Positions 7,892 through 27,940 of a stretch of 30,536 bases of DNA are shown piece after piece. Source of the DNA: Flavobacteriaceae bacterium (GTDB lineage Bacteria > Bacteroidota > Bacteroidia > Flavobacteriales > Flavobacteriaceae). Location of the stretch: assembly GCA_002693605.1 (NCBI GenBank), contig NZQO01000144.1, positions 1 to 30,536 of the forward strand. Reading direction: 5' to 3'. Made by a program: the position numbers and the translations under genes. The notes under the pieces were generated by a model. That model saw nothing but the letters and a program-made list of their open reading frames with translations, did no database searches and was not told where the DNA came from. Each line of letters begins with the position of its first letter. Positions within the stretch are counted from its first letter, which is position 1.

Positions 7892-9598
7892 TTATAGTAA
7901 ACCATCTGGCTCAAACAACAAGGAACAATTAATCCATTGCCAAATATGGAAACTGCTGTCGCGATTGCCTGACAAATATTTTTCCAATTCCTTTTCTAAT
8001 TTATTTGATTGAAACCAGGGATGTCCTTTTAGCGATAATATGCGCTCGGTAGTCCACGATTTTAGGTCGTCGCCCAGCCATTCCCGTTGCGGTGTTTGCA
8101 GCGCCCTTTTAGGAGCGAGACTTATAGATTCAGGCAATAATTCCTTAACCAACAACCGCAGTACATATTTATTCAGATCGCCTTGAATTTTATATTTTCT
8201 AGGCTGCGCGAATGCGAATTCCACCAAACGGTGGTCCAAAAAAGGCTCCCGCAGCTCGGTACTGGCTGCCATAGAAATACGATCGTTAAAGCGTAGCGCT
8301 CGCGGCAACTTGGTATAGAATAGGTCCCGATACTGTAAATTTAACAGTGAATTTTCAAAGGGCTCTCGATATTCTGGCTTTTCGGCCCGGGCCAAAAAAT
8401 CTGCCGAGAGGACCCCTGGACGAAATGGTGATTTTCTGACACCCTGAATGGTTTCACCTTCTGTGTTACGGTAATAATCATATCCGGCCCATTGCTCGTC
8501 CATTCCTTGACCATCCAGCACCACTTTTACACCCCGTTTCCGGGCTTCAGCAAAAAGTGAGGCATACGCCAAGGTAGGAAATCCCCCATAGGGTTCATCC
8601 TGCTGAGATGCCATTAATCTACTCAACTCAGGTACTTGTTGACCCGCTAATTTAACCTTGTGTAACGGATTTGAAGTGTGGACGATTAACTCTTCCACCC
8701 ACGGCAGCTCATCATAACGTTCGTCCCCAGTGTAGAAAGTGAATGCCCGAATGTCTCCCCCTTTTTTGTGCTTGTTTACCAATGCAAGTAATAAGGAGCT
8801 GTCCACCCCCCCACTTATATTAAAACCTAGAGGAACATCGGCACGAAAACGGAGGGCAATACTATCTTCCAAAAGTCCCAGATAAGTAGTGACCGCCTGC
8901 TCCAGTGGTTTTTCTTCGGATTGTTTTTTAATTTCATTTTCAAAATTATACCATTGCGTAATGGAGAATCGCCCTTGTGCAACTACCATCGAATGACCAG
9001 CGGACAATTGAAAAACACCTTCCCAAAAAGTTTCGTGTGGCATACCATAACTGCCATAGGCAAAGTATGTAGCCCACACTTTTTCGTTAGCCACTCGAGA
9101 AAGTCCTGCCTCAAAAAGTGTTTTTAGTTCGGAAGCAAAATAAAATGTATCATCTTGATATGCGTAATAAAAGGGTTTAACACCGAATCGATCGCGCGCA
9201 GCGAAAAGTTGCTTCCCTTTCCTATCCCATATCGCGAAGGCAAACATTCCATTCAACCGTGCTAAACATTCCTCCCCCCAAGAAATGTATGCAGCTAGGA
9301 GTACTTCGGTATCCGATTGGGTTTTGAAGACGTACTCATTTTTGAGGCAACTTCGCAGTTCCTTATAGTTATAGATTTCGCCGTTAAAGACCAGTATATA
9401 TCTCCCATCGGGAGAATGGAACGGCTGGTTGGCCCCTTCCGATAGATCGATAATGGAAAGTCGGTTATGACCAAGTACGATATTATCTTCAGAAAAAATG
9501 CCGGTATTGTCGGGGCCACGGTGCTGTTGTTTTTTCAGCATGGCCGCCATGGTCTTTTGTGAAGCGTTTATTCCAATAATTCCGGCAATTCCGCACAT
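7892..9598 (-). CDS. asnB: Asparagine-synthase-like glutamine amidotransferase (likely glycan carboxyl amidation)
   Basis: A 568-residue class II glutamine-dependent amidotransferase. The start is ATG 9598, which exposes Cys2 as nucleophile after Met removal (MCGIAG). Glutaminase motifs are RGPD at 27-30 and NGEIYNY at 72-78; the ATP-pyrophosphatase loop SGGVDSS lies at 262-268, followed by the AsnB-like tail. The reaction is transfer of glutamine nitrogen to an AMP-activated carboxylate. In O-antigen clusters this family amidates hexuronic acids (WbpS in Pseudomonas aeruginosa is the known case), so UDP-GalNAcA or its polymer is a likely target. The TAATG overlap with neuA instead ties it to nonulosonate synthesis. 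A housekeeping asparagine synthetase is possible but unlikely here. Confidence 0.9.
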   Translation of the reverse strand: MCGIAGIIGINASQKTMAAMLKKQQHRGPDNTGIFSEDNIVLGHNRLSIIDLSEGANQPFHSPDGRYILVFNGEIYNYKELRSCLKNEYVFKTQSDTEVLLAAYISWGEECLARLNGMFAFAIWDRKGKQLFAARDRFGVKPFYYAYQDDTFYFASELKTLFEAGLSRVANEKVWATYFAYGSYGMPHETFWEGVFQLSAGHSMVVAQGRFSITQWYNFENEIKKQSEEKPLEQAVTTYLGLLEDSIALRFRADVPLGFNISGGVDSSLLLALVNKHKKGGDIRAFTFYTGDERYDELPWVEELIVHTSNPLHKVKLAGQQVPELSRLMASQQDEPYGGFPTLAYASLFAEARKRGVKVVLDGQGMDEQWAGYDYYRNTEGETIQGVRKSPFRPGVLSADFLARAEKPEYREPFENSLLNLQYRDLFYTKLPRALRFNDRISMAASTELREPFLDHRLVEFAFAQPRKYKIQGDLNKYVLRLLVKELLPESISLAPKRALQTPQREWLGDDLKSWTTERILSLKGHPWFQSNKLEKELEKYLSGNRDSSFHIWQWINCSLLFEPDGLL

Positions 9599-10296
9599 TA
9601 TAGATTCAATTTTTTTGCCAGTTGCTCGGCCCTTCGCCAATCTTCCATAGTGTCGATATTTACGTGCCGGGCAGGGTTCGATTGCACATAGCCAATCCGG
9701 TCGCCGTATAGTGAATTTCCTTTCAACAACACCTCGGTTTTAGTAAGATAAATGGAACCGTCGCGAATAAAGGCGGGGGGTAATTCTTGCCTTCTTTTTA
9801 TTGGTTTCTTCTCGCCCGTAGCCAACTGCAATATTCCGTCGTGGGCCACCTCAAAAACCCAGTGCGGATTATATTCATGCGGCACTTCAATTACGGACAA
9901 GAGCGAATCGGTATTTCCCGATTTAAAAGTTTCAATGGCTTGGTCGATATCTTCTGAAGTACGAAACGGAGTGGTTACCTGTAATAGGCACACGGCATCA
10001 AAGCTATCTCCCTGATCGCTTAAGGCGGTAAGAGCGTGCTGTACCACTTCTAAAGAACCGGAATCATCCTGTGCGAATCGTTCTGGCCGCACAAAAGGCA
10101 CCGCTGCTCCGGCCTCTTTGGCGAGGGTACGTAGGGTTTCATCTTCTGAAGAGAAGACGACCCTGTCCAGCAGCTTGGCATTCAGGGCAGCTTGAATAGT
10201 ATATAGCAGTAACGGCTTCCCATTAAGTTTCTTACGGTTTTTATTCGGAATACCCTTACTTCCTCCCCGCGCTGGTATGAGCCCCAATATACGCAT
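9598..10296 (-). CDS. neuA: Acylneuraminate cytidylyltransferase (CMP-nonulosonate synthetase)
   Basis: A 232-residue enzyme that activates a sialic-acid-type sugar with CTP, giving CMP-sugar and pyrophosphate in the cytoplasm. The signature loop IPARGGSKGIPNKN occupies residues 7-20; LLQVTTPFRTSEDI and FIRDGSIYLTK follow as in short NeuA proteins. Length matches single-domain bacterial enzymes of about 220-230 residues, so the extra esterase domain of E. coli NeuA is absent. The ATG shares one base with the neuC stop (TGATG), and its own stop shares one base with the next start (TAATG). Whether the sugar is Neu5Ac or another nonulosonate cannot be told from this gene alone. Confidence 0.93.
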   Translation of the reverse strand: MRILGLIPARGGSKGIPNKNRKKLNGKPLLLYTIQAALNAKLLDRVVFSSEDETLRTLAKEAGAAVPFVRPERFAQDDSGSLEVVQHALTALSDQGDSFDAVCLLQVTTPFRTSEDIDQAIETFKSGNTDSLLSVIEVPHEYNPHWVFEVAHDGILQLATGEKKPIKRRQELPPAFIRDGSIYLTKTEVLLKGNSLYGDRIGYVQSNPARHVNIDTMEDWRRAEQLAKKLNL

Positions 10297-11453
10297 CAGT
10301 AGGTAATGGTCTTGTGAAAGCGCAAATCGGCCTCGGCCAGGATATTGGCAATCTTTGCCCCGCTATCGCCATTTCCGTAAAGAGTACTTTGCGTATTTCT
10401 GGGTTGTTCCAACTGTTGCTTAATTGCCTTATAAATGGCGTCTTCGGAATAAGGGACATCCAATACGTTTTCACCTCGTAGACGCCTATGTTGCCTGCTA
10501 CCTATATTTACCACCGGAACCCCTAAAAACGAACATTCGCGTAACCCCACACTGCTGTTACCGATGAGACATTTGCTGTTATAGAGCAATTTTAGAAAGT
10601 CCACAGGTTCCATATTCTTGAAAAAGTGAATATGTTCTGGATCGTGCGTTTCACGATACGATCTAATTCCATTTGAGGTGCCATCTGCGCCAGCGTCTAC
10701 ATTTGGCCAAAACCAAAAAGTGGGAATCTTTAGCGCGTCTACCGTGCGCAATGTCTGCAGCACATTCTCACGGGCCTGCCGGTACTCTGTTGTAACAGGA
10801 TGTTGCATAACCACCAAGTAGCCTTCGGAAATAGAAAATGTTCCGCCAACACCGCCATATTTTTCAATGGGATTAAAATCGAGTTCAGGATCTTCAAGTA
10901 CCTGTGCGGCCAAATCGATAGAGGGACATCCGGTATTGACCACAAAGTCGGGATCCTCGCCCAATTTGATGACGCGTTCGCGCGCTTCGTCCGAAGCTAC
11001 CAAATGGAGATCGGCCAATTTCGTATTGGCGTGCCGCACCTTCTCATCGATATTTCCCGTAACCTCACCTCCCTGTATGTGCACTAAGGGTATATTTTGA
11101 TAGGCCGCGGCAATGGAGGCGGCAATCGTCTCGAAACGATCGGCAATGGTGACCACGGCATCGGGGCGCAGATTGTAAAATACATTGGAAAGCTCCATAA
11201 CACCGAGCCCTGTGGTTTTGGCCATGGCGGTAGGGTTTTCACCCTCCAGCACCATAAACACTTTTTCGGTAATTGTAAATCCGTCTTTTTCGATAAAATC
11301 AACAGCCGTGCCATAGCGATCCAATAGAGCAGACCCTGCAATCACCAATTGCAGCTCCAAATTGGGGTGCGCCTGTATGGCGGACAGGGCAGTCTTAATC
11401 CGGCTATAGGAAGGACGGGCCGTAATGACCACGCAAATTTTACGCTTTGCCAT
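10296..11453 (-). CDS. neuC: UDP-N-acetylglucosamine 2-epimerase, hydrolysing
   Basis: A 385-residue enzyme of the GT-B-like epimerase family, which hydrolyses and epimerises a UDP-HexNAc to the free 2-epimer (ManNAc from UDP-GlcNAc), the first step toward sialic acid. Motifs seen: ARPSYS at 12-17, ADRFE at 104-108, HIQGGEVTGNIDEKVRHA at 125-142 and IGNSSVGLREC in the C-terminal domain. HIQGGExTG is the usual marker of the hydrolysing branch rather than non-hydrolysing WecB. The start overlaps the end of neuB by 14 bases. A relative acting on UDP-diacetylbacillosamine in legionaminic acid synthesis is the alternative; the extra genes for that route are not in this window. Confidence 0.92.
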   Translation of the reverse strand: MAKRKICVVITARPSYSRIKTALSAIQAHPNLELQLVIAGSALLDRYGTAVDFIEKDGFTITEKVFMVLEGENPTAMAKTTGLGVMELSNVFYNLRPDAVVTIADRFETIAASIAAAYQNIPLVHIQGGEVTGNIDEKVRHANTKLADLHLVASDEARERVIKLGEDPDFVVNTGCPSIDLAAQVLEDPELDFNPIEKYGGVGGTFSISEGYLVVMQHPVTTEYRQARENVLQTLRTVDALKIPTFWFWPNVDAGADGTSNGIRSYRETHDPEHIHFFKNMEPVDFLKLLYNSKCLIGNSSVGLRECSFLGVPVVNIGSRQHRRLRGENVLDVPYSEDAIYKAIKQQLEQPRNTQSTLYGNGDSGAKIANILAEADLRFHKTITY

Positions 11454-12465
11454 TAAAAATATCTGAATGGTTAAGAAATTCCCACTGATTCATAGATCGG
11501 TTCACTTTTTGGCCTAAAACTGTCTCGAATGCCATCGCATCAATGCCATGGCCCTTGGGCTTTTTCGCTTCTAGGTCCTCGAAGCGCAATATATGGCCTT
11601 TTGCGATATTTTTATTGATGGCGAGCGACTTTTCGAAAATCCCCTTCAATTCCGTAAAGTCATCCGAACTGGACTTATCAACGGGATTGTTGAGGGCGGT
11701 GCCGATCTTTCGTACCGCTTTGGCTAATTGGGAGATTTCCGGAATTTCCAGGGAAGAAGAGGCATCGGGCCCGGGATCGTTCGCACGATCGAAAACCGCA
11801 TGGAACTCCAGGATTTCAGCTCCCAAGGTCACTGCGGCAATGCCCGTTTCAATGGTCGCAGAGTGATCGGAATACCCTACTGGAACGTGATACCGCTGTT
11901 TTAATTCGGCAATTGCATTTAGCCCGTAATTTTCTGGTCGCGTAGGGTAACTGGTAGTGCATTGCAGAATGGAAAATGGGACCTCTCGCAGTTTCAAAAA
12001 GGCAACTGTTTTGTTCAATTCGTCGAATGAGCTCATTCCAGAGGATAGGATAACCGGTTTCCCGGTCTGCGCAATCCGCTCTAATAGCAAGAAGTTACTT
12101 ACCTCGCCACTCCCAATTTTATAGCGCTTTACCCCCATTTGCTCGAGTAGATCTACCGCGGCATTGCTAAAGGGAGAGCTCATAAACTCCATGTTATGAC
12201 GCTCGCAACGCGCTTTAAGTTGCTTCCATTGATCTAGGGTAAATTCCATCCGCTTCCAATAATCGAATCGCGTTTTATCATTCGAAAAGCGAATGCGAAA
12301 GGGCTCGTGAATACTGCTCTCCGCTTCCGCAATATGGGTTTGGAACTTTATGGCGTCGATTCCGGTAGGGGCTAGGGCATCAATATATGCTAGCGCCGTT
12401 CGAAAGCTACCGTGGTGGGCCTGGGCTATTTCGGCGATTAGAAAAGGCGTGTTTCGACGGGTCAT
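11440..12465 (-). CDS. neuB: N-acetylneuraminate synthase family (NeuB) with C-terminal SAF domain
   Basis: A 341-residue enzyme that condenses phosphoenolpyruvate with ManNAc or a related sugar to form a nine-carbon nonulosonic acid. TIM-barrel motifs in order: EIAQAHHGS at 12-20, DAIKFQTH at 37-44, SSPFS at 96-100, KIGSGE at 116-121, LQCTTSYP at 167-174 and GYSDHS at 197-202. The tail from about 275 (LAINKNIAKGHIL and VLGQK) is the antifreeze-like SAF domain. One oddity: where many NeuB proteins read EKHFT, this one reads LEFHAVFD at 219-226 before GPDASSSL. It is the first gene after a 279-base gap, so it probably heads its own transcript with neuC, neuA and the amidotransferase. Confidence 0.93.
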   Translation of the reverse strand: MTRRNTPFLIAEIAQAHHGSFRTALAYIDALAPTGIDAIKFQTHIAEAESSIHEPFRIRFSNDKTRFDYWKRMEFTLDQWKQLKARCERHNMEFMSSPFSNAAVDLLEQMGVKRYKIGSGEVSNFLLLERIAQTGKPVILSSGMSSFDELNKTVAFLKLREVPFSILQCTTSYPTRPENYGLNAIAELKQRYHVPVGYSDHSATIETGIAAVTLGAEILEFHAVFDRANDPGPDASSSLEIPEISQLAKAVRKIGTALNNPVDKSSSDDFTELKGIFEKSLAINKNIAKGHILRFEDLEAKKPKGHGIDAMAFETVLGQKVNRSMNQWEFLNHSDIFNGKA

Positions 12466-13647: not shown

Positions 13648-14892
13648 TCATATTGTTTTGAATTGCCCCTTTAAAGACGAAGCCGAAAGGTACTCCATCA
13701 AATCTGGCCTATCAAGTTTAAAACTATTTTTATCTTCAGCCCATATAGAATACAATTCCTGAAGTCTTTCTGTTATAGTTTCTATATCGTCTGCGGTTGA
13801 TTGCCATGGGTACGCCTCACCCAATAGCCGTACCGTCTCACTGTTTTTGGGCCCGAGGTACAAAATTGGGTTGTTGGCCATTACTAAATGCGGGAATTTG
13901 CCAGGTAAGAAAGGGCTCAATTCGGCTACCGCTTCCAAGATAATATTTACCGAAGCGGATTGTTCCATTCTTTTAACCGTTTCATAGGTCTCATACCCTT
14001 CGCTGATGTGTACAGAAGGCATATGGGCAGCCTTTTCAGAAAGTCTTGGCTGGTGATAGGATGCAGGGCCTATCAACAATAATTGACTTTCCTCCCGAGC
14101 CTGTGCATTTTCCTTGAGAAATTTCACCCAAGCCTCAAGCAACGGAAACGGGTCGCGCTGCTTCATCATGTTGCCGGCGTGTAGCACCGTGAACTTGGAA
14201 GTATCGAAATAGTCCGGTATTGCGGTATCATTATTATCTTGCTCTGAAAATTGATGCGGAATTATGATACTTTTATCGGTAAAGGCAGGAAAAAATTGCG
14301 CCATCCAGTCCTTTAATTTTAGGCTAGGAAAGGCGACATACCTTGCCTTTTCGGAAACTTCCCTAAAAAAATCTTCTTTCTGACGATGACCAGCCTCGGT
14401 CCAATTATAAGGTGGCGGATAGCAATGAAACGGATAGGGGTCGTGAATGTAGGCCATCCATTTGTCGTGCAACTTGGGCACTTGTAGCATGGCGTGATGG
14501 GGCCGAAAACTGGCACCCTTGCTCAAGGTCAGGATCAGGTCCTCTCCCGAATAGTTTTGCTTTATAGCGTTGGCAATGCTTCGCGAATCGTTAAAATAGG
14601 TAAACGAGAACCCAAACCGATTTTCCAAGAAATGAGAGAAATTCGTATCGAATAGCCGTTGTAATACCCGTTGCGTCCGGCTTAAAAAATAATTTGCTGT
14701 AAATTTCCTTTCCCGTATCGCAATGCAATCGATTTCTGGAAGTTTTATATCCTTTCGCGTATAGTGCAGCACACGAACCCCGAATCCCCCCGCAGCGAAA
14801 TTCTGAATTAGGGCCACATTGGCCTTGGAACCACTGCTGTCTTCTACGTCAATAGACTCCGAAATTATTAGAATTCGGTCACGATTTACCAC
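13648..14892 (-). CDS. GT4-like (GT-B fold) glycosyltransferase
   Basis: A 414-residue protein with GT-B layout. The N-terminal half is RILIISESIDVEDSSGSKAN followed by a Rossmann-like pattern, with a central IHDPYPFHCYPPPYNW and VAFPSLKLKDWMAQFF. The donor half begins FTVLHAGNMMKQRDPFPLLE and has LLLIGPASYHQP; the usual EX7E segment is replaced by NIILEAVAELSPFLPGKFP, a pattern of more distant GT4-like proteins. The start is GTG at 14892, seven bases inside the upstream GT2. It stands just outside the AT-rich block: its line 14101-14160 has 31 of 60 G+C, against 16 of 60 in 14881-14940. The next GT2 follows in the same frame. Substrate is unknown. Confidence 0.78.
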   Translation of the reverse strand: MVNRDRILIISESIDVEDSSGSKANVALIQNFAAGGFGVRVLHYTRKDIKLPEIDCIAIRERKFTANYFLSRTQRVLQRLFDTNFSHFLENRFGFSFTYFNDSRSIANAIKQNYSGEDLILTLSKGASFRPHHAMLQVPKLHDKWMAYIHDPYPFHCYPPPYNWTEAGHRQKEDFFREVSEKARYVAFPSLKLKDWMAQFFPAFTDKSIIIPHQFSEQDNNDTAIPDYFDTSKFTVLHAGNMMKQRDPFPLLEAWVKFLKENAQAREESQLLLIGPASYHQPRLSEKAAHMPSVHISEGYETYETVKRMEQSASVNIILEAVAELSPFLPGKFPHLVMANNPILYLGPKNSETVRLLGEAYPWQSTADDIETITERLQELYSIWAEDKNSFKLDRPDLMEYLSASSLKGQFKTI

Positions 14893-21881: not shown

Positions 21882-22277
21882 TTACTTATAGTTCTTTTCC
21901 TTCACGATATCCACACTACTTTTTAACCATTTCCTCAAGCGGGGCGATGGCAGATAGTTGACCGTGAATTTTCGGATGTTCTTTACCGTCAGCTTTTCGG
22001 GACTATCGGCCGGCTCACATTGAAACTTCACCTTAAACCTGCCAAGGTCATCCAAGACCACCGTCTCCCCCTGCTCCAAGTGAAACTTTACCTGCTGCAC
22101 CAGCATAATGAGCACCCCAAATACGTCTCCCTCGGTGTGGGTGGACATATTGGATATCTCCCAACTGATGCGCCGAAGGTCCACTTCGCGTTTGGTAACT
22201 GCCTGTAATATATACTTACATTCCTCCTCATTTTGAATGGTATTCTTTCGTTTGGTGATGCGATACGGGATGGCCAT
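21882..22277 (-). CDS. HU-like DNA-binding protein (Bacteroidota HU-related family)
   Basis: A 131-residue protein, longer than canonical HU (about 90). Residues 24-70 are the helical dimerisation part (VDLRRISWEISNMSTHTEG then VLIMLVQQVKFHLEQG). GETVVLDDLGRFKVKFQ at 70-86 matches the HU strand-turn segment where HU has GFGxF. The tail IRKFTVNYLPSPRLRKWLK at 101-119 is typical of the Bacteroidota HU-related proteins. It should bind and bend DNA as a dimer. It has its own leader after a strong terminator, and flank-like composition (32 of 60 G+C at 22021-22080) inside an AT-rich region. In Porphyromonas gingivalis an HU gene next to the capsule locus affects capsule transcription, so a regulatory role is plausible here. 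Confidence 0.85.
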   Translation of the reverse strand: MAIPYRITKRKNTIQNEEECKYILQAVTKREVDLRRISWEISNMSTHTEGDVFGVLIMLVQQVKFHLEQGETVVLDDLGRFKVKFQCEPADSPEKLTVKNIRKFTVNYLPSPRLRKWLKSSVDIVKEKNYK

Positions 22278-22479: not shown

Positions 22480-23406
22480 TTAAGATAGACCAAGGTAATG
22501 CGAGCCTATTTTTTGATTAGTGGTATAGCTTATTTCCATATCGGGATACAGTTTCTCATACAGCTCTCGTTCTTGCCTTAATTTTTCGGCGTGTTGCCAT
22601 TTCCCCGTTAATAAGGCCTTTTTCCTGCGTAGGGCTAACTTCTTTATTTTTATAGGTACTTCCCTTATACGCTCTGAATTGACATCGGCATATAAAAGCT
22701 TGATCTTTCGCTCATATTCAATGACTTGATTGGCACTGTTGCGCTGTGCATTTTTTAAAAGCCTATCCTCCCTATCATGTTTGATATAAACCGCCGGCAC
22801 CACGGCAATTTTTAGATTGTGGAATCGCAGTCGTTGACAGTAATTGTCATCTTCTCCATAATGAAAGAACAAAGGATCAAAACCACCCACTTTAAGAAGA
22901 GTAGATTTTGGCAAAAGCCAGGCAGCGGCATTCACGAAGGGGACTTCATAAAAGCGTTGCCAGCGCTGGAAAATGGCATCGCTATAAAAATTAGCATTGT
23001 TATCGTACCCAAGATAATAGGAAAAATTACGATCTAATAACCGACCACTACCATTTAGGTGTACTGGACTTAGAATGCCCAATTCAGGTTCGCATTTATG
23101 TATCTCTATCAATTTTTCGATACCACCTTGTTCTAAATAGGCATCTTGATTTAATAAGAAAACATACTCCGCTCCGTTATTTAGGGCGTACGTAATCCCA
23201 AGATTATTTGCCTGTCCAAACCCAAGGTTTTCGTTCTGTGACAACACCTTCACCTTTGGAAAGTGTTGCTGAATGGAAGAAACCGTTCTATCTGAAGAAT
23301 TGTTATCCACCACAACTATCGAATGATCGCCACAACTTTGAAGGCATTTTTCAATCCAGGGCATCGCGTTATACGCAACTATAATTATGCTTATTTTGCT
23401 TTTCAC
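22480..23406 (-). CDS. Glycosyltransferase family 2 (WbbL-like)
   Basis: A 308-residue GT2 of the rhamnosyltransferase-like type: ISIIIVAYNAMPWIEKCL at 5-22, VVVDNNSSDRT at 31-41, NENLGFGQANNLGI at 58-71, and NQD at 86-88 (LLNQDAYLE) instead of DXD, which is normal for this subgroup. FVNAAAWLLPKSTLLKVGGF and GEDDNYCQRLRF follow. The C-terminal part is long, helical and basic. The start is GTG overlapping the sulfotransferase stop (GTGA). Its composition is nearer the flanks (33 of 60 G+C at 22921-22980) than the sulfotransferase genes before it. It is the last gene before the terminator. Confidence 0.87.
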   Translation of the reverse strand: MKSKISIIIVAYNAMPWIEKCLQSCGDHSIVVVDNNSSDRTVSSIQQHFPKVKVLSQNENLGFGQANNLGITYALNNGAEYVFLLNQDAYLEQGGIEKLIEIHKCEPELGILSPVHLNGSGRLLDRNFSYYLGYDNNANFYSDAIFQRWQRFYEVPFVNAAAWLLPKSTLLKVGGFDPLFFHYGEDDNYCQRLRFHNLKIAVVPAVYIKHDREDRLLKNAQRNSANQVIEYERKIKLLYADVNSERIREVPIKIKKLALRRKKALLTGKWQHAEKLRQERELYEKLYPDMEISYTTNQKIGSHYLGLS

Positions 23407-24089
23407 AATAAATCAAAACACCTTTGGAAACAATTTCTTTTATCTTCAAAACTGTAATTTAGAGAAACTACGTCCTTCCTAAATTGTTCTTCAACCAAAA
23501 TCTTTTCACGCTTTCTATAAAAGGACGAATAATGATATTTCCTTTTCAAGTTTTTTTTACTGTGCTGTTCGAAAGGCTTCGATATGCCTAGAACCTTATT
23601 TAATCTTAATATGTCCTCATTCAGATTCTCAAATCTACCTATAAAATCTAACGTATAAGGGCCGTTTTCAACATCAAAGAAATCTGACTGAGCAATCTTA
23701 TGATCTATTCGGTTATACATTGAGTCCTTATTTTTAAACACTTTCTCAAATTCCCCTCCCTCTAACATATACTGAACAAATGATCCTTTAACATTTCTAT
23801 CTTGCATTATCCATAAATAATCAGAGTAAGCTCGGTCCCAAGGATTTCTCACAAATGTGAACTTAAAATAGCTATTCCATTGTTCAGGAGTCACCAATTT
23901 ATTTTCAAAAAGTTGACGTGAGGTCGCGTGTTGCAAATGAATTTTACTTTTGGGACACCAACCGTACAGCAACTCATAGTTGGGAATGCGCCAATCTAAC
24001 ATTTCATCAGGAAAGAAATGATTTTTTATACTAGTACCAGCAGTTTTGGGAATATGAATAAAAATAAACCTATGTTTATGTGAGATCAT
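23403..24089 (-). CDS. Sulfotransferase family 2 type protein
   Basis: A 228-residue PAPS-dependent sulfotransferase candidate. FIFIHIPKTAGTSIKNHFF at 8-26 is the phosphosulfate-binding loop with the PKTAGTS form of carbohydrate sulfotransferases, and FTFVRNPWDRAYSDYLW at 77-93 supplies the 3'-phosphate-binding Arg and Ser. Later FIGRFENLNEDILRLNKVLG is the family's third motif. I chose ATG 24089, five bases after the methyltransferase stop; an in-frame TTG 60 bases upstream only adds residues inside that gene. It should sulfate a hydroxyl of the glycan. AT-rich. It differs in type from the first sulfotransferase, so two distinct positions are probably modified. Confidence 0.86.
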   Translation of the reverse strand: MISHKHRFIFIHIPKTAGTSIKNHFFPDEMLDWRIPNYELLYGWCPKSKIHLQHATSRQLFENKLVTPEQWNSYFKFTFVRNPWDRAYSDYLWIMQDRNVKGSFVQYMLEGGEFEKVFKNKDSMYNRIDHKIAQSDFFDVENGPYTLDFIGRFENLNEDILRLNKVLGISKPFEQHSKKNLKRKYHYSSFYRKREKILVEEQFRKDVVSLNYSFEDKRNCFQRCFDLL

Positions 24090-24094
24090 ACAGT

Positions 24095-24982
24095 TTATTT
24101 TTGAAAGACTAGCACATCTTGAAAATACGGTCCGGGTATTTCTTTCCAATTTCCTGGATAATAATTTTTCAACTGTAATCCACTTGTCTCTATAAGCTTC
24201 TGTAAGCCTGTCTCTGAAATCCCTATTGCATTCTCTGGAATTTTGAAGTGGGAAGGATAAAACCAGTCATTAGAATCATAAGCATTTTTATCAAATACCC
24301 ATATCATCTGATTTGTGTTATGAAACCTTCCCTTTTCATTCTTACGTGAATCTAGCGTCCGGAAATATGATTCATCTAAGTAAAAAAATGTAATTAATGC
24401 TATACCGCCTGGCTTTAACACTCTATATATCTCTTTAAAATAAAAAATGGCATCTTTTTCATTTAGATGTGTCCATACCGATAGGGCCGTTACCATATCC
24501 ATCGATTCATCATCTATTTCCCAACAACGTCTATTTTCCGAAGTGTTATTTGAGTACATCGCATTGTAAACATCAAAATATTCAAAGTTAAGAAATGGAC
24601 TATCATAATTATTTAGGCAAAAATCTATATTAGCTCGTGCAACGTCAATTCCAAGATATTGACCGTCATTACGCACATAATTTTCGCACGCCATGGCTAA
24701 CAGACCAGTGCCACATCCTATATCCAGAATACGATTACCTTCTTTTTTTTCTAGATGCATATAAAGAAAAGTTTGAAAAATCCCTATTACGTGAGCCCAT
24801 TCAGCATAAGAGGTTTTACCACCAATTCGGTGTTTTTTACTAGGAATTTTATCAAGGACCGCTGTTCTTAAAATATCCTCCTTATCTAATCTCAGAAAAT
24901 CTAAATCAATTTGATTATCATAGTACTTCGCACTTTTCTTAAAATTAATTTTTAAAAGCAAATTAACAATCCTCTTATACAT
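24095..24982 (-). CDS. Class I SAM-dependent methyltransferase
   Basis: A 295-residue methyltransferase. The start is ATG 24982 (MYKRIVNLLLKINF), five bases after the sulfotransferase stop; an upstream TTG would lie inside that gene. Motif I is ILDIGCGTGLLAMA at 85-98, the ribose-binding acidic strand is YLGIDVARANIDF, the post-II region is DMVTALSVWTHL and motif III is VLKPGGIALITFF. The rest is a variable substrate domain ending GPYFQDVLVFQK. It lies between two sulfotransferases and downstream of wzt, so O-methylation of the glycan, perhaps at its growing end, is the natural guess. The acceptor is not evident from sequence. AT-rich (17 of 60 G+C at 24601-24660). Confidence 0.85.
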   Translation of the reverse strand: MYKRIVNLLLKINFKKSAKYYDNQIDLDFLRLDKEDILRTAVLDKIPSKKHRIGGKTSYAEWAHVIGIFQTFLYMHLEKKEGNRILDIGCGTGLLAMACENYVRNDGQYLGIDVARANIDFCLNNYDSPFLNFEYFDVYNAMYSNNTSENRRCWEIDDESMDMVTALSVWTHLNEKDAIFYFKEIYRVLKPGGIALITFFYLDESYFRTLDSRKNEKGRFHNTNQMIWVFDKNAYDSNDWFYPSHFKIPENAIGISETGLQKLIETSGLQLKNYYPGNWKEIPGPYFQDVLVFQK

Positions 24983-24987
24983 AAATC

Positions 24988-25743
24988 TTAAATTTTCCAA
25001 TCATTGCAATCCCAACCTAAAACATTCTCAACATATTGTATATCATTACTATACAATCTACCTAACATTTTTTTTGCCTCTAAAGAAATATTTTCTGAAT
25101 ATTGAATTTTATTCTTAACCACTTCATTATACTTAAACAGACTAGGGTTCAATCTTAGAAAATTGAATATTCGGTCCATTTGGTCTTTTTGATTTTTTAC
25201 AAAATTTTCATACTTAACAAAGTGAATCTGCTTATCCGGGAAAAATTCATATAATTTTTCGACTTGATTTTTATAAAAACCTCGTTCTAGATAGGAATGA
25301 TATAAGTTGTTCGATTTATTCAATTTTAACAAATTCGACAACCCATCTAGGACACAATCCATAAATAATCTTGTCTCATTTCCTCTCATAACTTCCATAT
25401 TCCAATTAGAAAAAGCTCTTTCAATGGGATTTCTTAAAATTACAATTATTTTCATCCTATGATTATATTCGTAAATACGCTGTATACTATTCTCCCAATA
25501 TATATAACTAGGGGTTACCTCTCCGTTGAGTAATCTTCTTTGCGTTATATCAAAACTATTATGATACTGCGAGTAATCGGGCTTATCCGTAAAATATTTA
25601 TCGTTATCAAAAAAATGAGTTTCCTTTATTCTTGGCATATTTATTCCAGAATGTTGCCTAAAATATGCATCTAATGCAGAGGTGCCTGCTTTCTGAACAC
25701 CTACACAAATAAAATCGACTTTGAAATTCCTTTCAAAAAACAT
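24988..25743 (-). CDS. Sulfotransferase, heparan-sulfotransferase-like (Sulfotransfer_1 type)
   Basis: A 251-residue PAPS-dependent sulfotransferase candidate. FICVGVQKAGTSALDAYF at 11-28 is the 5'-phosphosulfate loop; RIKETHFFDND at 38-48 and NGEVTPSYIYW at 73-83 are characteristic of the heparan N-/O-sulfotransferase branch; IIVILRNPIERAFSNWNM at 99-116 is the 3'-phosphate-binding segment with the expected Arg and Ser. It ends DCNDWKI. The ATG shares one base with the wzt stop (TAATG), so export and sulfation are translationally coupled. The role is to place sulfate on a sugar hydroxyl or amine. PAPS-synthesis genes are not in this window. AT-rich. Confidence 0.88.
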   Translation of the reverse strand: MFFERNFKVDFICVGVQKAGTSALDAYFRQHSGINMPRIKETHFFDNDKYFTDKPDYSQYHNSFDITQRRLLNGEVTPSYIYWENSIQRIYEYNHRMKIIVILRNPIERAFSNWNMEVMRGNETRLFMDCVLDGLSNLLKLNKSNNLYHSYLERGFYKNQVEKLYEFFPDKQIHFVKYENFVKNQKDQMDRIFNFLRLNPSLFKYNEVVKNKIQYSENISLEAKKMLGRLYSNDIQYVENVLGWDCNDWKI

Positions 25744-26993
25744 TAATCTTTATTATTAAATTCTGTCTTTAACAAGAACGGTGGCCAAATTTCTTCTTCC
25801 TGTAAGATTTGGAAAGACAGAGCATTATTTATTCTCAAATACGGAGCACGGGTATTGCCAAAACTCACCAGAATATTTATTGAATATATACCCCGTGAAA
25901 GTTGTATATTTTTGTGAATTAATGAGAAGCGGAGCAATTTATTTTTTCTGTCGATACCGGACGTCTTTTTCCAATCTAATATTGCAATCGGACGTTGTTC
26001 CTTATCAAATAATATAATAGAAAATTGAGGGCTAGTATCTTCCTTTTTTATCAACCATTCAAAATAAATTTCCAGATTATCGCCCCAATGTAATTGAGGG
26101 AGGCCGTTCTCGTTGTGATACGGTGTAATAATTTGTATAACTTTCAAATCAATACTCCCGTCGTCGAACACCACATTCATCTCATTATTAGCAAATCGTC
26201 CATAGTACGTATCAATTGCACCCGATACATCTTCCCCCTGCTTAATCGACCCTCCTTTTTCCATCAAAATCGCCCTATTGCAAATACGCGATACCATCGG
26301 CATATTATGGGAAACAAAGACTATGGCCGTATTAGGAAGAATGGCATCGATCCGCTTAAAGCATTTCAGTACAAAACCCAAATCGCCCACCGCCAATACC
26401 TCATCGATGATCAAGACATCGGGTTCCATCTGGGCCGCCACGGCAAACCCCAGGCGTACCTTCATCCCGCTGCTATAGTTCTGTACGGGCATATCGATAA
26501 ACTCCTCGAGCTCGGCAAAGGCAATTATCTCCTCTAATTTAGCGTCAATCTCCTTTCTAGTGAAACCCAAAATGGCGCCATTGTTATAAATATTCTCCCG
26601 GCCGCTCAAAATGGGGCTAAAGCCAGCGCCCAGCTCGATGAGCGCACCTACCCGGCCCTTTATGGTAATCTTTCCCGCATCGGGATTGATAAGCCCATTC
26701 AACATTTTCAGCAGGGTACTTTTCCCCGCACCGTTATGGCCAATGAGTCCCAGGCACTCACCCCGCCGCAATTCAAAACTGATGTCCCTTACCGCCCAAA
26801 ATTCCTTGGGCCGCAATTCGCGTTCGGCCTTGTTGCCCCGTAGCCCGCTCGCCAAATCTTTCATTCCATACCACAGACTCGTCTTCAGGTCCTTACAGAA
26901 TTTCTTGGACAGCCCTTCCACCTTAACCAGCACTTCCGGTTCGGAAGTGGGCGTATTTGTGGGTTGCAGTGTGTCCATCGTCTTGGCAATCAT
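25743..26993 (-). CDS. wzt: O-antigen/capsule ABC exporter ATP-binding protein Wzt with C-terminal reader domain
   Basis: A 416-residue ATPase subunit of the polysaccharide exporter at the inner membrane. From ATG 26993: Walker A GHNGAGKST at 85-93, signature YSSGMK at 173-178, Walker B VLIIDE at 193-198 and switch His at 229 in FVSHNM. Residues about 275-416 form a beta-rich extension (IDLKVIQIITPYHNENG, HWGDNLEIYFEWLIKKED) like the Wzt C-terminal domain, which in E. coli O8/O9a binds the modified chain end before export. The ATPase part is GC-rich (36 of 60 at 26401-26460) and the extension AT-rich (19 of 60 at 25981-26040). ATG 26978 is an alternative start; a TTG at 27041 is less likely. 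Confidence 0.92.
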   Translation of the reverse strand: MIAKTMDTLQPTNTPTSEPEVLVKVEGLSKKFCKDLKTSLWYGMKDLASGLRGNKAERELRPKEFWAVRDISFELRRGECLGLIGHNGAGKSTLLKMLNGLINPDAGKITIKGRVGALIELGAGFSPILSGRENIYNNGAILGFTRKEIDAKLEEIIAFAELEEFIDMPVQNYSSGMKVRLGFAVAAQMEPDVLIIDEVLAVGDLGFVLKCFKRIDAILPNTAIVFVSHNMPMVSRICNRAILMEKGGSIKQGEDVSGAIDTYYGRFANNEMNVVFDDGSIDLKVIQIITPYHNENGLPQLHWGDNLEIYFEWLIKKEDTSPQFSIILFDKEQRPIAILDWKKTSGIDRKNKLLRFSLIHKNIQLSRGIYSINILVSFGNTRAPYLRINNALSFQILQEEEIWPPFLLKTEFNNKD

Positions 26994-27094
26994 AGTTCCG
27001 GTTCGGTATTCAGTAGTAATGGTGTATTTTTTATTTAGCAATTTATTCCAAAGACTTTAATTTCAGCAGCGTTCCCTCACATTTAACATTGCCA

Positions 27095-27940
27095 TTATGC
27101 ACTCAATCGTTCTACGATAATGGGGATCGATATTCTATAAAAAACCAATCCTAGAAAGAGCAGCGGCACACAGGCGGCAAGGACGATAAAATAATACGTC
27201 AAATACTGTGGCGTAAAGCCAACGGCCAAATCGCGTGCCGTTAAAATAACCGGGGTAAAGGGGTTCAGCTCCATTAGCACCTTCATCAAGCCCTCCTTGG
27301 GCATGGCATAGACCACAGGCGTAATGTACATCACGAACTGCAGCCCAAACCCAATAATCTTTCCTACATCATTGTACAGCATTCCTATTGGGGTGAGGAA
27401 CAGGCCAATGGTGGTGCCCAGCAAGATCGCCCCGAAGAGCGCCAACGGAAACAGCCACAAGGTATGGTGGTACCCTACCCCAAAGAGAAAGATAAACCCG
27501 ATGAGCAGTACCACTTTGATGGCACTGTTGAACAGTAACTTGTAGATACCCGATATAATTAACGCCTCCTTGGGAAAATTTATTTTGGTTAAGATGCCCT
27601 GTGCGGCATTGGTGCTGGTCCGGGGGGAATTGATCGATTCGGTCAGGATGGACCATAACAGGGTGCCCGAAAACGCAAAAACCGGATACGGAATACCCGT
27701 ATCGGTTAGTTGAATGGTGCCCGATTTGTTAAGGAAGATCCAGACCACGGCGGTCGTCAAGGGGGTGATGAATGCCCACACGATGCCGAGGTACGATTGC
27801 CTGTACTGGGCCGAAATATCGCGAACGGCCAATTGCCGCGCCAAAAACCGGGAAGCATACATATCGGTTAGGCTCTCGCGTACCAGCCGCCCTATGCGTA
27901 GGTTATTTTCCTTCTGATATACTTTGGTTTCCAAAGCCAT
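27095..27940 (-). CDS. wzm: O-antigen/capsule ABC exporter permease Wzm
   Basis: A 281-residue integral membrane protein of the ABC-2 type. A short cytoplasmic N-terminus with RDISAQYRQSYLGIVWAFI leads into about six hydrophobic segments (AFITPLTTAVVWIFL, VFAFSGTLLWSIL, AIKVVLLIGFIFLFGV, LFPLALFGAILLGTTIGLFL, GFGLQFVMYITPVVY, YFIVLAACVPLLFLGLVF). The order and the ITPVVYAMP and LNPFTPVILTARD stretches fit the polysaccharide exporter permease. It would move the finished, lipid-linked glycan across the inner membrane with Wzt, which begins 101 bases downstream. Its presence, and the lack of any Wzx or Wzy, place this cluster in the ABC-transporter route. A 256-base gap precedes it. Confidence 0.92.
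   Translation of the reverse strand: MALETKVYQKENNLRIGRLVRESLTDMYASRFLARQLAVRDISAQYRQSYLGIVWAFITPLTTAVVWIFLNKSGTIQLTDTGIPYPVFAFSGTLLWSILTESINSPRTSTNAAQGILTKINFPKEALIISGIYKLLFNSAIKVVLLIGFIFLFGVGYHHTLWLFPLALFGAILLGTTIGLFLTPIGMLYNDVGKIIGFGLQFVMYITPVVYAMPKEGLMKVLMELNPFTPVILTARDLAVGFTPQYLTYYFIVLAACVPLLFLGLVFYRISIPIIVERLSA

Follow-up and report, generated by a model that had tools for sequence, protein, structure and literature searches.

Genes behind a flavobacterial surface-sugar exporter suggest addition of sulfate, often with methyl, that may tag the finished chain for export

In the Wzm-Wzt systems of Escherichia coli O9a and O8, the methyl-phosphate or methyl cap is made by WbdD, which contains a coiled coil. 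The consulted parts of two papers describe WbdD as a kinase-methyltransferase that sets chain length (PMC3482155) and known terminators as carrying a coiled-coil ruler (PMC11231755). The caps named for Wzm-Wzt in the excerpted text of a third are methyl, (methyl)phosphate, and Kdo or other unique sugars; sulfate is not among them (PMC9445017). Aquifex aeolicus Wzm-Wzt has a 3-O-methyl-Man/Rha cap, and Trp362 of its Wzt stacks on the methyl cap (PMC9445017). The Klebsiella/Raoultella O12 Wzt has a Kdo cap, a sugar added by a glycosyltransferase rather than a sulfate. In the wbsalmo O-antigen cluster of Aeromonas salmonicida, a sulfotransferase-domain gene (ORF19) is listed directly after wzt (ORF18), the only wzt-adjacent sulfotransferase in the literature searched and one left unexplained in the consulted part of its source; the organism is not a member of the Bacteroidota, and in that text the authors propose no cap and found the reported structure free of sulfate (PMC4483657). 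The sulfated capsules of Cobetia marina and Vibrio KMM 8419 are likewise ABC exported, with PAPS genes and sulfotransferases, but they use group 3 capsule exporters and carry the sulfate in the repeat unit, according to partial texts (PMC11766843, PMC11641403). No described sulfate cap appeared in the titles and opening lines of abstracts of the literature searched.

The locus compared here lies in a 30,536-nucleotide stretch (contig NZQO01000144.1) of a Flavobacteriaceae genome, referred to below as the window (Table 1). Its wzt, ST2, MT, and ST1 genes form a near-gapless row on the minus strand, an arrangement reported in the first-pass annotation and confirmed by open reading frame coordinates and Pfam matches. 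The adjoining wzm, within an O-antigen-type cluster, was named from its conserved position and relatives, with no Pfam match at an E value of ≤0.1. Relatives with 42 to 75% identity lie upstream of wzt in 20/20 discovery loci, in divergent orientation in L042 and at a distance of 1.4 kb in L041. At the other end of the row, GT2 overlaps ST1 by 4 bases; the modifier slot ends there and the glycosyltransferase block starts, and GT2 relatives (42 to 50% identity) occur in 8 of the 20 related loci.

Table 1. Features of the locus, in window coordinates
Feature	Position	Strand	Basis or remark
wzm, membrane half of O-antigen/polysaccharide ABC exporter	27095..27940	-	Conserved place and relatives
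wzt, ATPase (nucleotide-binding) part	26217..27041	-	PF00005, 85.6 bits
wzt, C-terminal reader (carbohydrate-binding) domain, residues 276-432	25746..26216	-	Stop codon 25743-25745
Arg403 codon (R128 of the domain)	25833..25835	-	HMMER alignment to 8dky; candidate sulfate contact
ST2, PAPS-dependent sulfotransferase, first gene after wzt	24988..25743	-	PF00685, 53 bits
MT, SAM-dependent methyltransferase	24095..24982	-	PF13649/PF08241, ~52 bits; DIGCGTG motif
ST1, second sulfotransferase, of a family other than that of ST2	23403..24089	-	PF03567, 54 bits
GT2 glycosyltransferase	22480..23406	-	PF00535, 68.6 bits
NeuB/NeuC/CMP-synthetase genes	9598-12465		

By family and motifs, ST1 and ST2 are sulfotransferases: both match sulfotransferase families above the cut-off and retain intact motifs that we take to bind PAPS. 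The closest solved structures to ST2 are the sulfotransferase 3rnl and heparan sulfate GlcN 3-O-sulfotransferase 5 (E value of 1.6e-17 for each); a search of solved structures gave no relative of ST1. Pfam catalytic domains occupy most of ST2 (251 aa), MT (~295 aa), and ST1 (~228 aa) and leave no evident room for a coiled-coil ruler, a point against the cap interpretation given below. Unlike the WbdD systems, the window combines sulfotransferases with a small methyltransferase and no recognized ruler, which could be located on another protein.

The domain fused to the Wzt ATPase has the Wzt carbohydrate-binding fold. Its AF2 model (pLDDT, 84.5) matches 8dky, 5hnp, and 2r5o, so its earlier identification as a Wzt reader domain, with a genuine cap-binding fold, stands; the Pfam Wzt_C score on its own falls below the cut-off. 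Arg403 aligns with Trp362 of A. aeolicus Wzt, and among window-type readers this position holds R/K in 48/52, S/T in 3/52, and a gap in 1/52 (L143, in which the Wzt frame ends in another sequence and distances are approximate). The residue was basic in 42/42 sulfotransferase loci with a residue at that place and was replaced by S or T in 2/8 loci without a sulfotransferase (Fisher p = 0.023, kinship ignored). Arginine was retained in 6/8 window-type loci without a sulfotransferase, and readers of other types also have R/K there whether a sulfotransferase is present or absent. Net positive charge was rejected as a sign of sulfate binding, as the charge of the reader domain was mostly negative and showed no visible difference between loci. 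In viral contigs, six pattern matches were found, of which none was confirmed as a reader-domain relative.

We tentatively interpret the block after wzt as the terminal-modification, or cap, slot of an ABC-transporter-dependent polysaccharide with a sulfated end that is read by Wzt, and we give this interpretation slightly less than even weight. In the cytoplasm, the residue at the non-reducing end of the lipid-linked chain would receive sulfate from PAPS through ST2 and ST1 and a methyl group through MT, and this terminal modification would stop elongation. The Wzt C-terminal domain, with Arg replacing the methyl-stacking Trp, would recognize the sulfated end and license export. Across the Flavobacteriaceae, the slot is refilled by differing sulfotransferase Pfam families or by methyltransferases, presumably with its function kept. 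Against it, we found no glycan structure for the window or any of these loci.

We determined which gene comes first after wzt in 94 loci from the same bacterial order as the window and took the expectation from 20,000 within-locus shuffles. A sulfotransferase was the first downstream gene in 33/94 loci versus 9.3 expected, a count reached by 0/20,000 shuffles, and an FkbM methyltransferase was first in 14/94 versus 1.9 expected, with the sulfotransferase-FkbM fusion of L068 (503 aa, directly after wzt) counted in both classes. SAM methyltransferases were first in 2/94 loci (0.3 expected), GT2 glycosyltransferases in 0/94 (27.2 expected), and GT4 in 4/94 (13.3 expected). The DegT sugar aminotransferase was also enriched (11/94 versus 2.9 expected), and cap enzymes are therefore not the slot's only occupants. 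Five Pfam families occupied the first position behind readers of the window type: PF00685, PF03567, PF13469, PF17784, and PF09037. Placement of a sulfotransferase next to wzt, as in the first-pass annotation, is far more frequent than chance, with replication in two sets picked by reader alone, and the methyltransferase has counterparts in the post-wzt slot elsewhere.

Rather more doubtful is the explanation that the sulfotransferases, along with MT, act on internal residues in each repeat, that modification genes gather at the wzt end, and that Wzt reads some other feature or the bulk chain. ABC-transporter loci containing PAPS and sulfotransferase genes are known to make marine capsules sulfated in the repeat unit in C. 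marina (Rha2S; PMC11766843) and Vibrio KMM 8419 (PMC11641403), as far as the partial texts go. The enrichment of DegT in the slot also favors internal sulfation, and many loci have two or three sulfotransferases, more than a single sulfated cap needs, which counts against a cap. However, the enrichment is specific to the position after wzt, one shared with FkbM and SAM methyltransferases and avoided by GT2s, and behind one reader type the same slot is refilled by differing sulfotransferase families. The Cobetia sulfotransferase genes, moreover, are described in the consulted text as lying beside RgpF and rhamnose genes (PMC11766843). If sulfation is internal, the slot enrichment stays an unexplained regularity.

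Among loci with window-type readers, a sulfotransferase lay within 3 kb of wzt on the same strand in 43/51. By set, the counts were 9/11, 13/15, and 21/25, the latter two sets being selected by reader sequence independently of sulfotransferases; the 25 named loci (41 minus 14 duplicates, L152, which has no DNA downstream, and L149, a partial match) are non-independent and include congeners (Aequorivita and Winogradskyella). L149 does carry a sulfotransferase, and one named-locus record bears the alphaproteobacterial name Pseudooceanicola. Stf0 (PF09037) was left out of the genome-wide scan, and a sulfotransferase may therefore have been missed in some of the loci scored as having none. Assignments from local profiles were Pfam checked for some genes, and the second gene of L111, with no Pfam match at 1e-3, was counted on its local profile alone. 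Profile c8 was found to model FkbM via the L068 fusion, and its hits were excluded from the sulfotransferase sets; the L068 gene itself, found by PF00685, was kept. We do not claim that reader type is coupled to sulfotransferases, as the result depended on how type was defined: 49/61 in the largest single-linkage cluster versus 16/26 in the rest (p = 0.10), or 43/50 for the strict window type versus 22/37 in the rest (p = 0.006, grouping drawn after the data were seen). Both tests ignored relatedness, excluded those A and B genomes that lacked sulfotransferases altogether, took R and named loci unfiltered by genome, and dropped loci with <3 kb downstream or (A, B, and R) a Wzt frame of <350 aa.

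It is unlikely that the cap is a methyl group, added by MT, FkbM, or their relatives and read by Wzt, with the sulfotransferases modifying the chain, or its terminal or penultimate residue, without this being read. That Wzt reads methyl and methyl-phosphate caps is established according to the consulted text (PMC9445017), and the window contains MT. The three MT relatives in the collected loci (L147, L154, and L076; 58 to 62% identity, blastp E ≤ 1e-15) are each the first gene after wzt and are followed by an ST1 relative. Eight window-type loci have no sulfotransferase within 3 kb. Four of them (L036, L114, L156, and L159) have an FkbM or other methyltransferase within the first two genes; in the remaining four (L033, L112, L142, and L158), DegT is first. 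Yet many window-type loci start with a sulfotransferase and have no neighboring methyltransferase recognized by our narrow local profiles, and the methyl-stacking Trp is aligned to Arg in this reader family. A special-sugar cap, either a DegT/WbqC amino sugar or a NeuB/NeuC/CMP-synthetase nonulosonic acid comparable to the Kdo of Klebsiella O12, under which sulfate would be a decoration, is very improbable, given that the window has no DegT beside wzt and its NeuB genes lie at a distance of 13 kb, and that L045, with a reader of another type, is the single one of the 20 discovery loci to contain close relatives of both neuB and neuC.

The first-pass annotation had also tied the reader to the modifiers by shared composition and inheritance as a unit. 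GC3 falls from 0.638 in wzm and 0.593 in the Wzt ATPase part to 0.342 in the reader (stop codon included), but the low-GC block extends to ~14.5 kb; this signal is unspecific, and composition alone links nothing. Compared with 51 relatives sharing its reader type, the window's Wzt had a median identity of 84% in the ATPase part and 44% in the reader domain. Relatives of the reader, ST2, MT, and ST1 were together in no other collected locus (blastp E ≤ 1e-15), and inheritance as a unit is not supported. ST2 relatives are first after wzt in 6/8 loci, none of these six with an MT relative. Of the 22 ST1 relatives left in the collected loci after removal of three duplicate rows, 15 are same-strand genes ≤3 kb downstream of a wzt. 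L076, which has both MT and ST1 relatives, has a different reader type from that of the window. Of the suggested co-occurrence, the recurring sulfotransferase slot and the MT-ST1 pair in three loci were retained, and the full four-part set elsewhere was not.

With regard to PAPS supply, APS kinase (E < 1e-50) was present in 30/30 sulfotransferase-bearing genomes versus 2/28 without sulfotransferases, where weak matches in three of the 28 (G010, G063, and G077; E values of 3e-7 to 9e-4 in frames of >600 aa) were counted as absent. The window's genome has APS kinase at an E value of 1.9e-63, and in seven genomes the gene is on the same contig, within ~10 kb of wzt. Only 41/169 sulfotransferase blocks lie ≤3 kb downstream of the examined wzt genes, most being elsewhere in the genomes; these counts are low because matches within 60 bases were merged, and five blocks are longer than one gene. 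In 10/36 sulfotransferase-bearing genomes, no sulfotransferase lies ≤3 kb downstream of the examined wzt genes. This distribution counts against the cap interpretation.

More broadly, sulfate, by itself or together with methyl, may be widespread among marine Flavobacteriaceae as an export-licensing terminal cap, different sulfotransferase families having repeatedly taken over one slot and the Wzt pocket having swapped Trp for Arg; this is a real possibility, albeit one we would wager against. Sulfate would then be a third chemical class of modification cap, besides methyl and (methyl)phosphate, and the L068 fusion would parallel the kinase-methyltransferase WbdD. If true, the proposal would add a new cap chemistry and a transporter domain that selects sulfated glycans, account for the crowding of sulfotransferases right after wzt in marine Bacteroidota, and provide a testable rule by which the gene after wzt names the cap. 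Proteins of 707 to 714 aa sit between two sulfotransferases in L032 and L045; the one in L032, a candidate WbdD-like kinase-methyltransferase, was rejected as such, having two methyltransferase regions, no kinase match, and no solved relative.

Because sulfotransferase, FkbM and DegT genes are enriched, and GT2 and GT4 genes avoided, directly after wzt, we conclude that this position is a modifier slot, with sulfotransferases its commonest occupants among the families tested. A Wzt search covered 149 genomes from the family and order of the window and gave group A (the 21 closest Wzts, window included, 11 of them with the window's reader type, or window-type) and group B (the next 50 listed, with divergent readers), which together reach down to an E value of 5.7e-60. 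For these loci up to 17 kb of downstream DNA was taken, and sulfotransferases were located by four Pfam families. A second set of 23 loci (set R) was found by reader alignment in 397 family genomes, and the same alignment yielded a third set of 41 named loci with 14 duplicates. Against a null that permuted sulfotransferase positions over the same-strand genes within each 15-kb stretch, a sulfotransferase was first after wzt in 33 of 94 loci versus 9.3 expected, a count reached by 0 of 20,000 shuffles, and 45 loci had one in the first three genes (22.7 expected). FkbM (14 versus 1.9 expected) and DegT (11 versus 2.9) were likewise enriched in first position, and GT2 (0 versus 27.2) and GT4 (4 versus 13.3) were depleted.

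Same-strand sulfotransferases lay within 3 kb of wzt in 15/21 group A and 15/50 group B loci; counts per 1.5-kb bin from the wzt stop were 15, 8, 0, 1, 0, 0, 0, 1, 3, 0 and 15, 3, 4, 0, 2, 2, 2, 0, 0, 1, respectively. Window-type readers, counted with local profiles, had a sulfotransferase within 3 kb in 9/11 (A), 13/15 (R), and 21/25 (named) loci and within 150 bases in 8/11, 7/15, and 17/25. Less similar readers in R had one within 3 kb in 3/8 loci (L116, L122, L123). Sulfotransferases occurred in 36/64 genomes, 26 of which had one no more than 3 kb from a wzt, and most sulfotransferase blocks lay elsewhere (only 41/169 within 3 kb of a wzt). About ten genomes also contained long open frames with a sulfotransferase domain, located at a distance from the wzt loci studied (see the table for examples). 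At locus L100 (G042:C13), the wzt match contains stop codons and has an open frame of 262 aa without the reader domain, directly followed by three sulfotransferases.

Features discussed in the text and Pfam families of first genes behind window-type readers (first genes of the remaining window-type loci were assigned by local profile only)
Feature	Source	Position	Strand	Assignment
Wzt reader domain	window	25746-26216	minus	C-terminal carbohydrate-binding domain
ST2	window	24988..25743	minus	PF00685
MT	window	24095..24982	minus	SAM-dependent methyltransferase
ST1	window	23403..24089	minus	PF03567
HU-like DNA-binding gene	window	21882-22277		PF18291
414-aa protein	window	13648-14892		no Pfam match at E 0.01
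503-aa protein	L068	15325-16836		sulfotransferase N-terminal, FkbM methyltransferase C-terminal
714-aa protein	L032	12126-14270		two methyltransferase regions
707-aa protein	L045	4821-6944		related to the 714-aa protein
~843- to 887-aa frames	various	G040:C1:509932, G078:C1:387238, G034:C4:3963, G024:C2:2791829, G073:C5:84967, G045:C8:645965, G068:C1:619274, plus others		sulfotransferase domain
First gene	window, L032, L104, L109, L126, L139, L151			PF00685
First gene	L031, L040			PF03567
First gene	L037			PF13469
First gene	L034, L131, L135			PF17784
First gene	L103			Stf0 PF09037

In L068, a group B locus, the first gene after wzt encodes a single protein that carries both a sulfotransferase and an FkbM domain. 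Eight window-type loci had no sulfotransferase within 3 kb; in four of these the first or second gene is a methyltransferase, and DegT was first in the other four. A WbqC-family gene often lies behind this aminotransferase in the first 3 kb (L034, L142, and others), and the slot DegT could supply the chain end with an amino sugar. The 714- and 707-aa proteins each sit between two sulfotransferases after wzt; no solved relative of the former was found, and L126 has a gap of similar size between its two sulfotransferases.

Supply of the sulfate donor PAPS was assessed by APS kinase in 60 genomes. Strong matches (E<1e-50) were present in 30/30 sulfotransferase-bearing genomes (17 identified by genome-wide Pfam search, 13 by a sulfotransferase at the locus) versus 2/28 without (G041, G076). 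Two other genomes have no sulfotransferase at the locus; G264, which has a window-type reader, lacked the kinase, and G394 had it. The gene lay on the wzt contig, within about 10 kb, in G041, G042, G366, G034, G017, G060, and G084.

In described systems, a non-reducing-end modification halts chain growth and serves as the ligand of the Wzt domain (PMC9445017). The AF2 model of the window's reader best matched solved Wzt cap-binding domains from three organisms, and at the sequence level its profile retrieved the domain of A. aeolicus (E 0.0013). In that alignment, Arg128 of the domain (residue 403) takes the place of Trp362, a residue that stacks against the methyl cap in that species (PMC9445017). 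Of 52 window-type readers, 46 have arginine at this position, two lysine, two threonine, one serine, and one a gap. The serine and one threonine come from two loci (L114, L159) that lack a sulfotransferase within 3 kb and have a methyltransferase first after wzt; the other threonine is in L152, a locus without downstream DNA. Because 6/8 of the window-type loci that lack a sulfotransferase in this interval keep arginine, the residue is no more than suggestive of sulfate reading.

We tentatively favor sulfate as part of the terminal mark at the chain end, as in described Wzt systems, a reading that could well be correct. It fits the slot statistics, the presence of methyltransferases in the same slot, the different sulfotransferase families that have come to fill it, and the sulfotransferase-FkbM fusion, all of which are compatible with terminal sulfate without proving it. 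Sulfation internal to the chain seems somewhat less likely but has points in its favor: multiple sulfotransferases occur in many loci, and repeat-unit sulfation is established in ABC-exported marine capsules (PMC11766843, PMC11641403). Sulfotransferase presence tracks reader type only when the type is drawn strictly (43/50 versus 22/37, p=0.006), and not when it is taken as a single-linkage cluster (49/61 versus 16/26, p=0.10). The only published wzt-adjacent sulfotransferase found in the literature searched is a sulfotransferase-domain gene in an Aeromonas cluster, whose O-antigen is without observed sulfate in the part of that paper available (PMC4483657). Such a case would match the expected look of a rare terminal sulfate, on which the authors are silent in that part.

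The window is a polysaccharide cluster from an assembly that is 68% complete, and most named records matched by its reader are Flavobacteriaceae. Its minus-strand order is ugd and an epimerase, wzm, wzt, ST2, MT, ST1, and GT2, followed by a long glycosyltransferase run, a pyruvyltransferase, and NeuB/NeuC/CMP-synthetase genes. The close packing described in the first-pass annotation was confirmed, with wzt through GT2 overlapping or almost touching. Its proposal that reader and three modifiers are inherited as a unit was not supported: all three MT relatives in the collected loci are first after wzt and followed by an ST1 relative, and because L076 carries this pair with a different reader type, the pair is a module not tied to one reader. 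GC3 falls from 0.64 in wzm and 0.59 in the ATPase part of wzt to 0.34 in the reader and 0.27 to 0.32 in ST2, MT, and ST1, so the claimed shared composition is real, but it provides no specific tie because the low-GC block extends to about 14.5 kb. In all but one of 51 relatives sharing the window's reader type, GC was lower in the reader than in the ATPase part; the means were 0.295 and 0.401, respectively, against 0.315 for the following 3 kb. From ATPase part to reader, the median identity of these relatives to the window dropped from 84% to 44%; based on both declines, the reader belongs to the variable portion of the locus. Within the low-GC block, the HU-like gene has ordinary GC3 (0.629), a pattern that would fit assembly of the block around this gene or next to it. 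Relatives of the 414-aa protein occur in the L036 and L045 clusters (47 to 48% identity) and, in two pieces, in L047 (50 to 61%).
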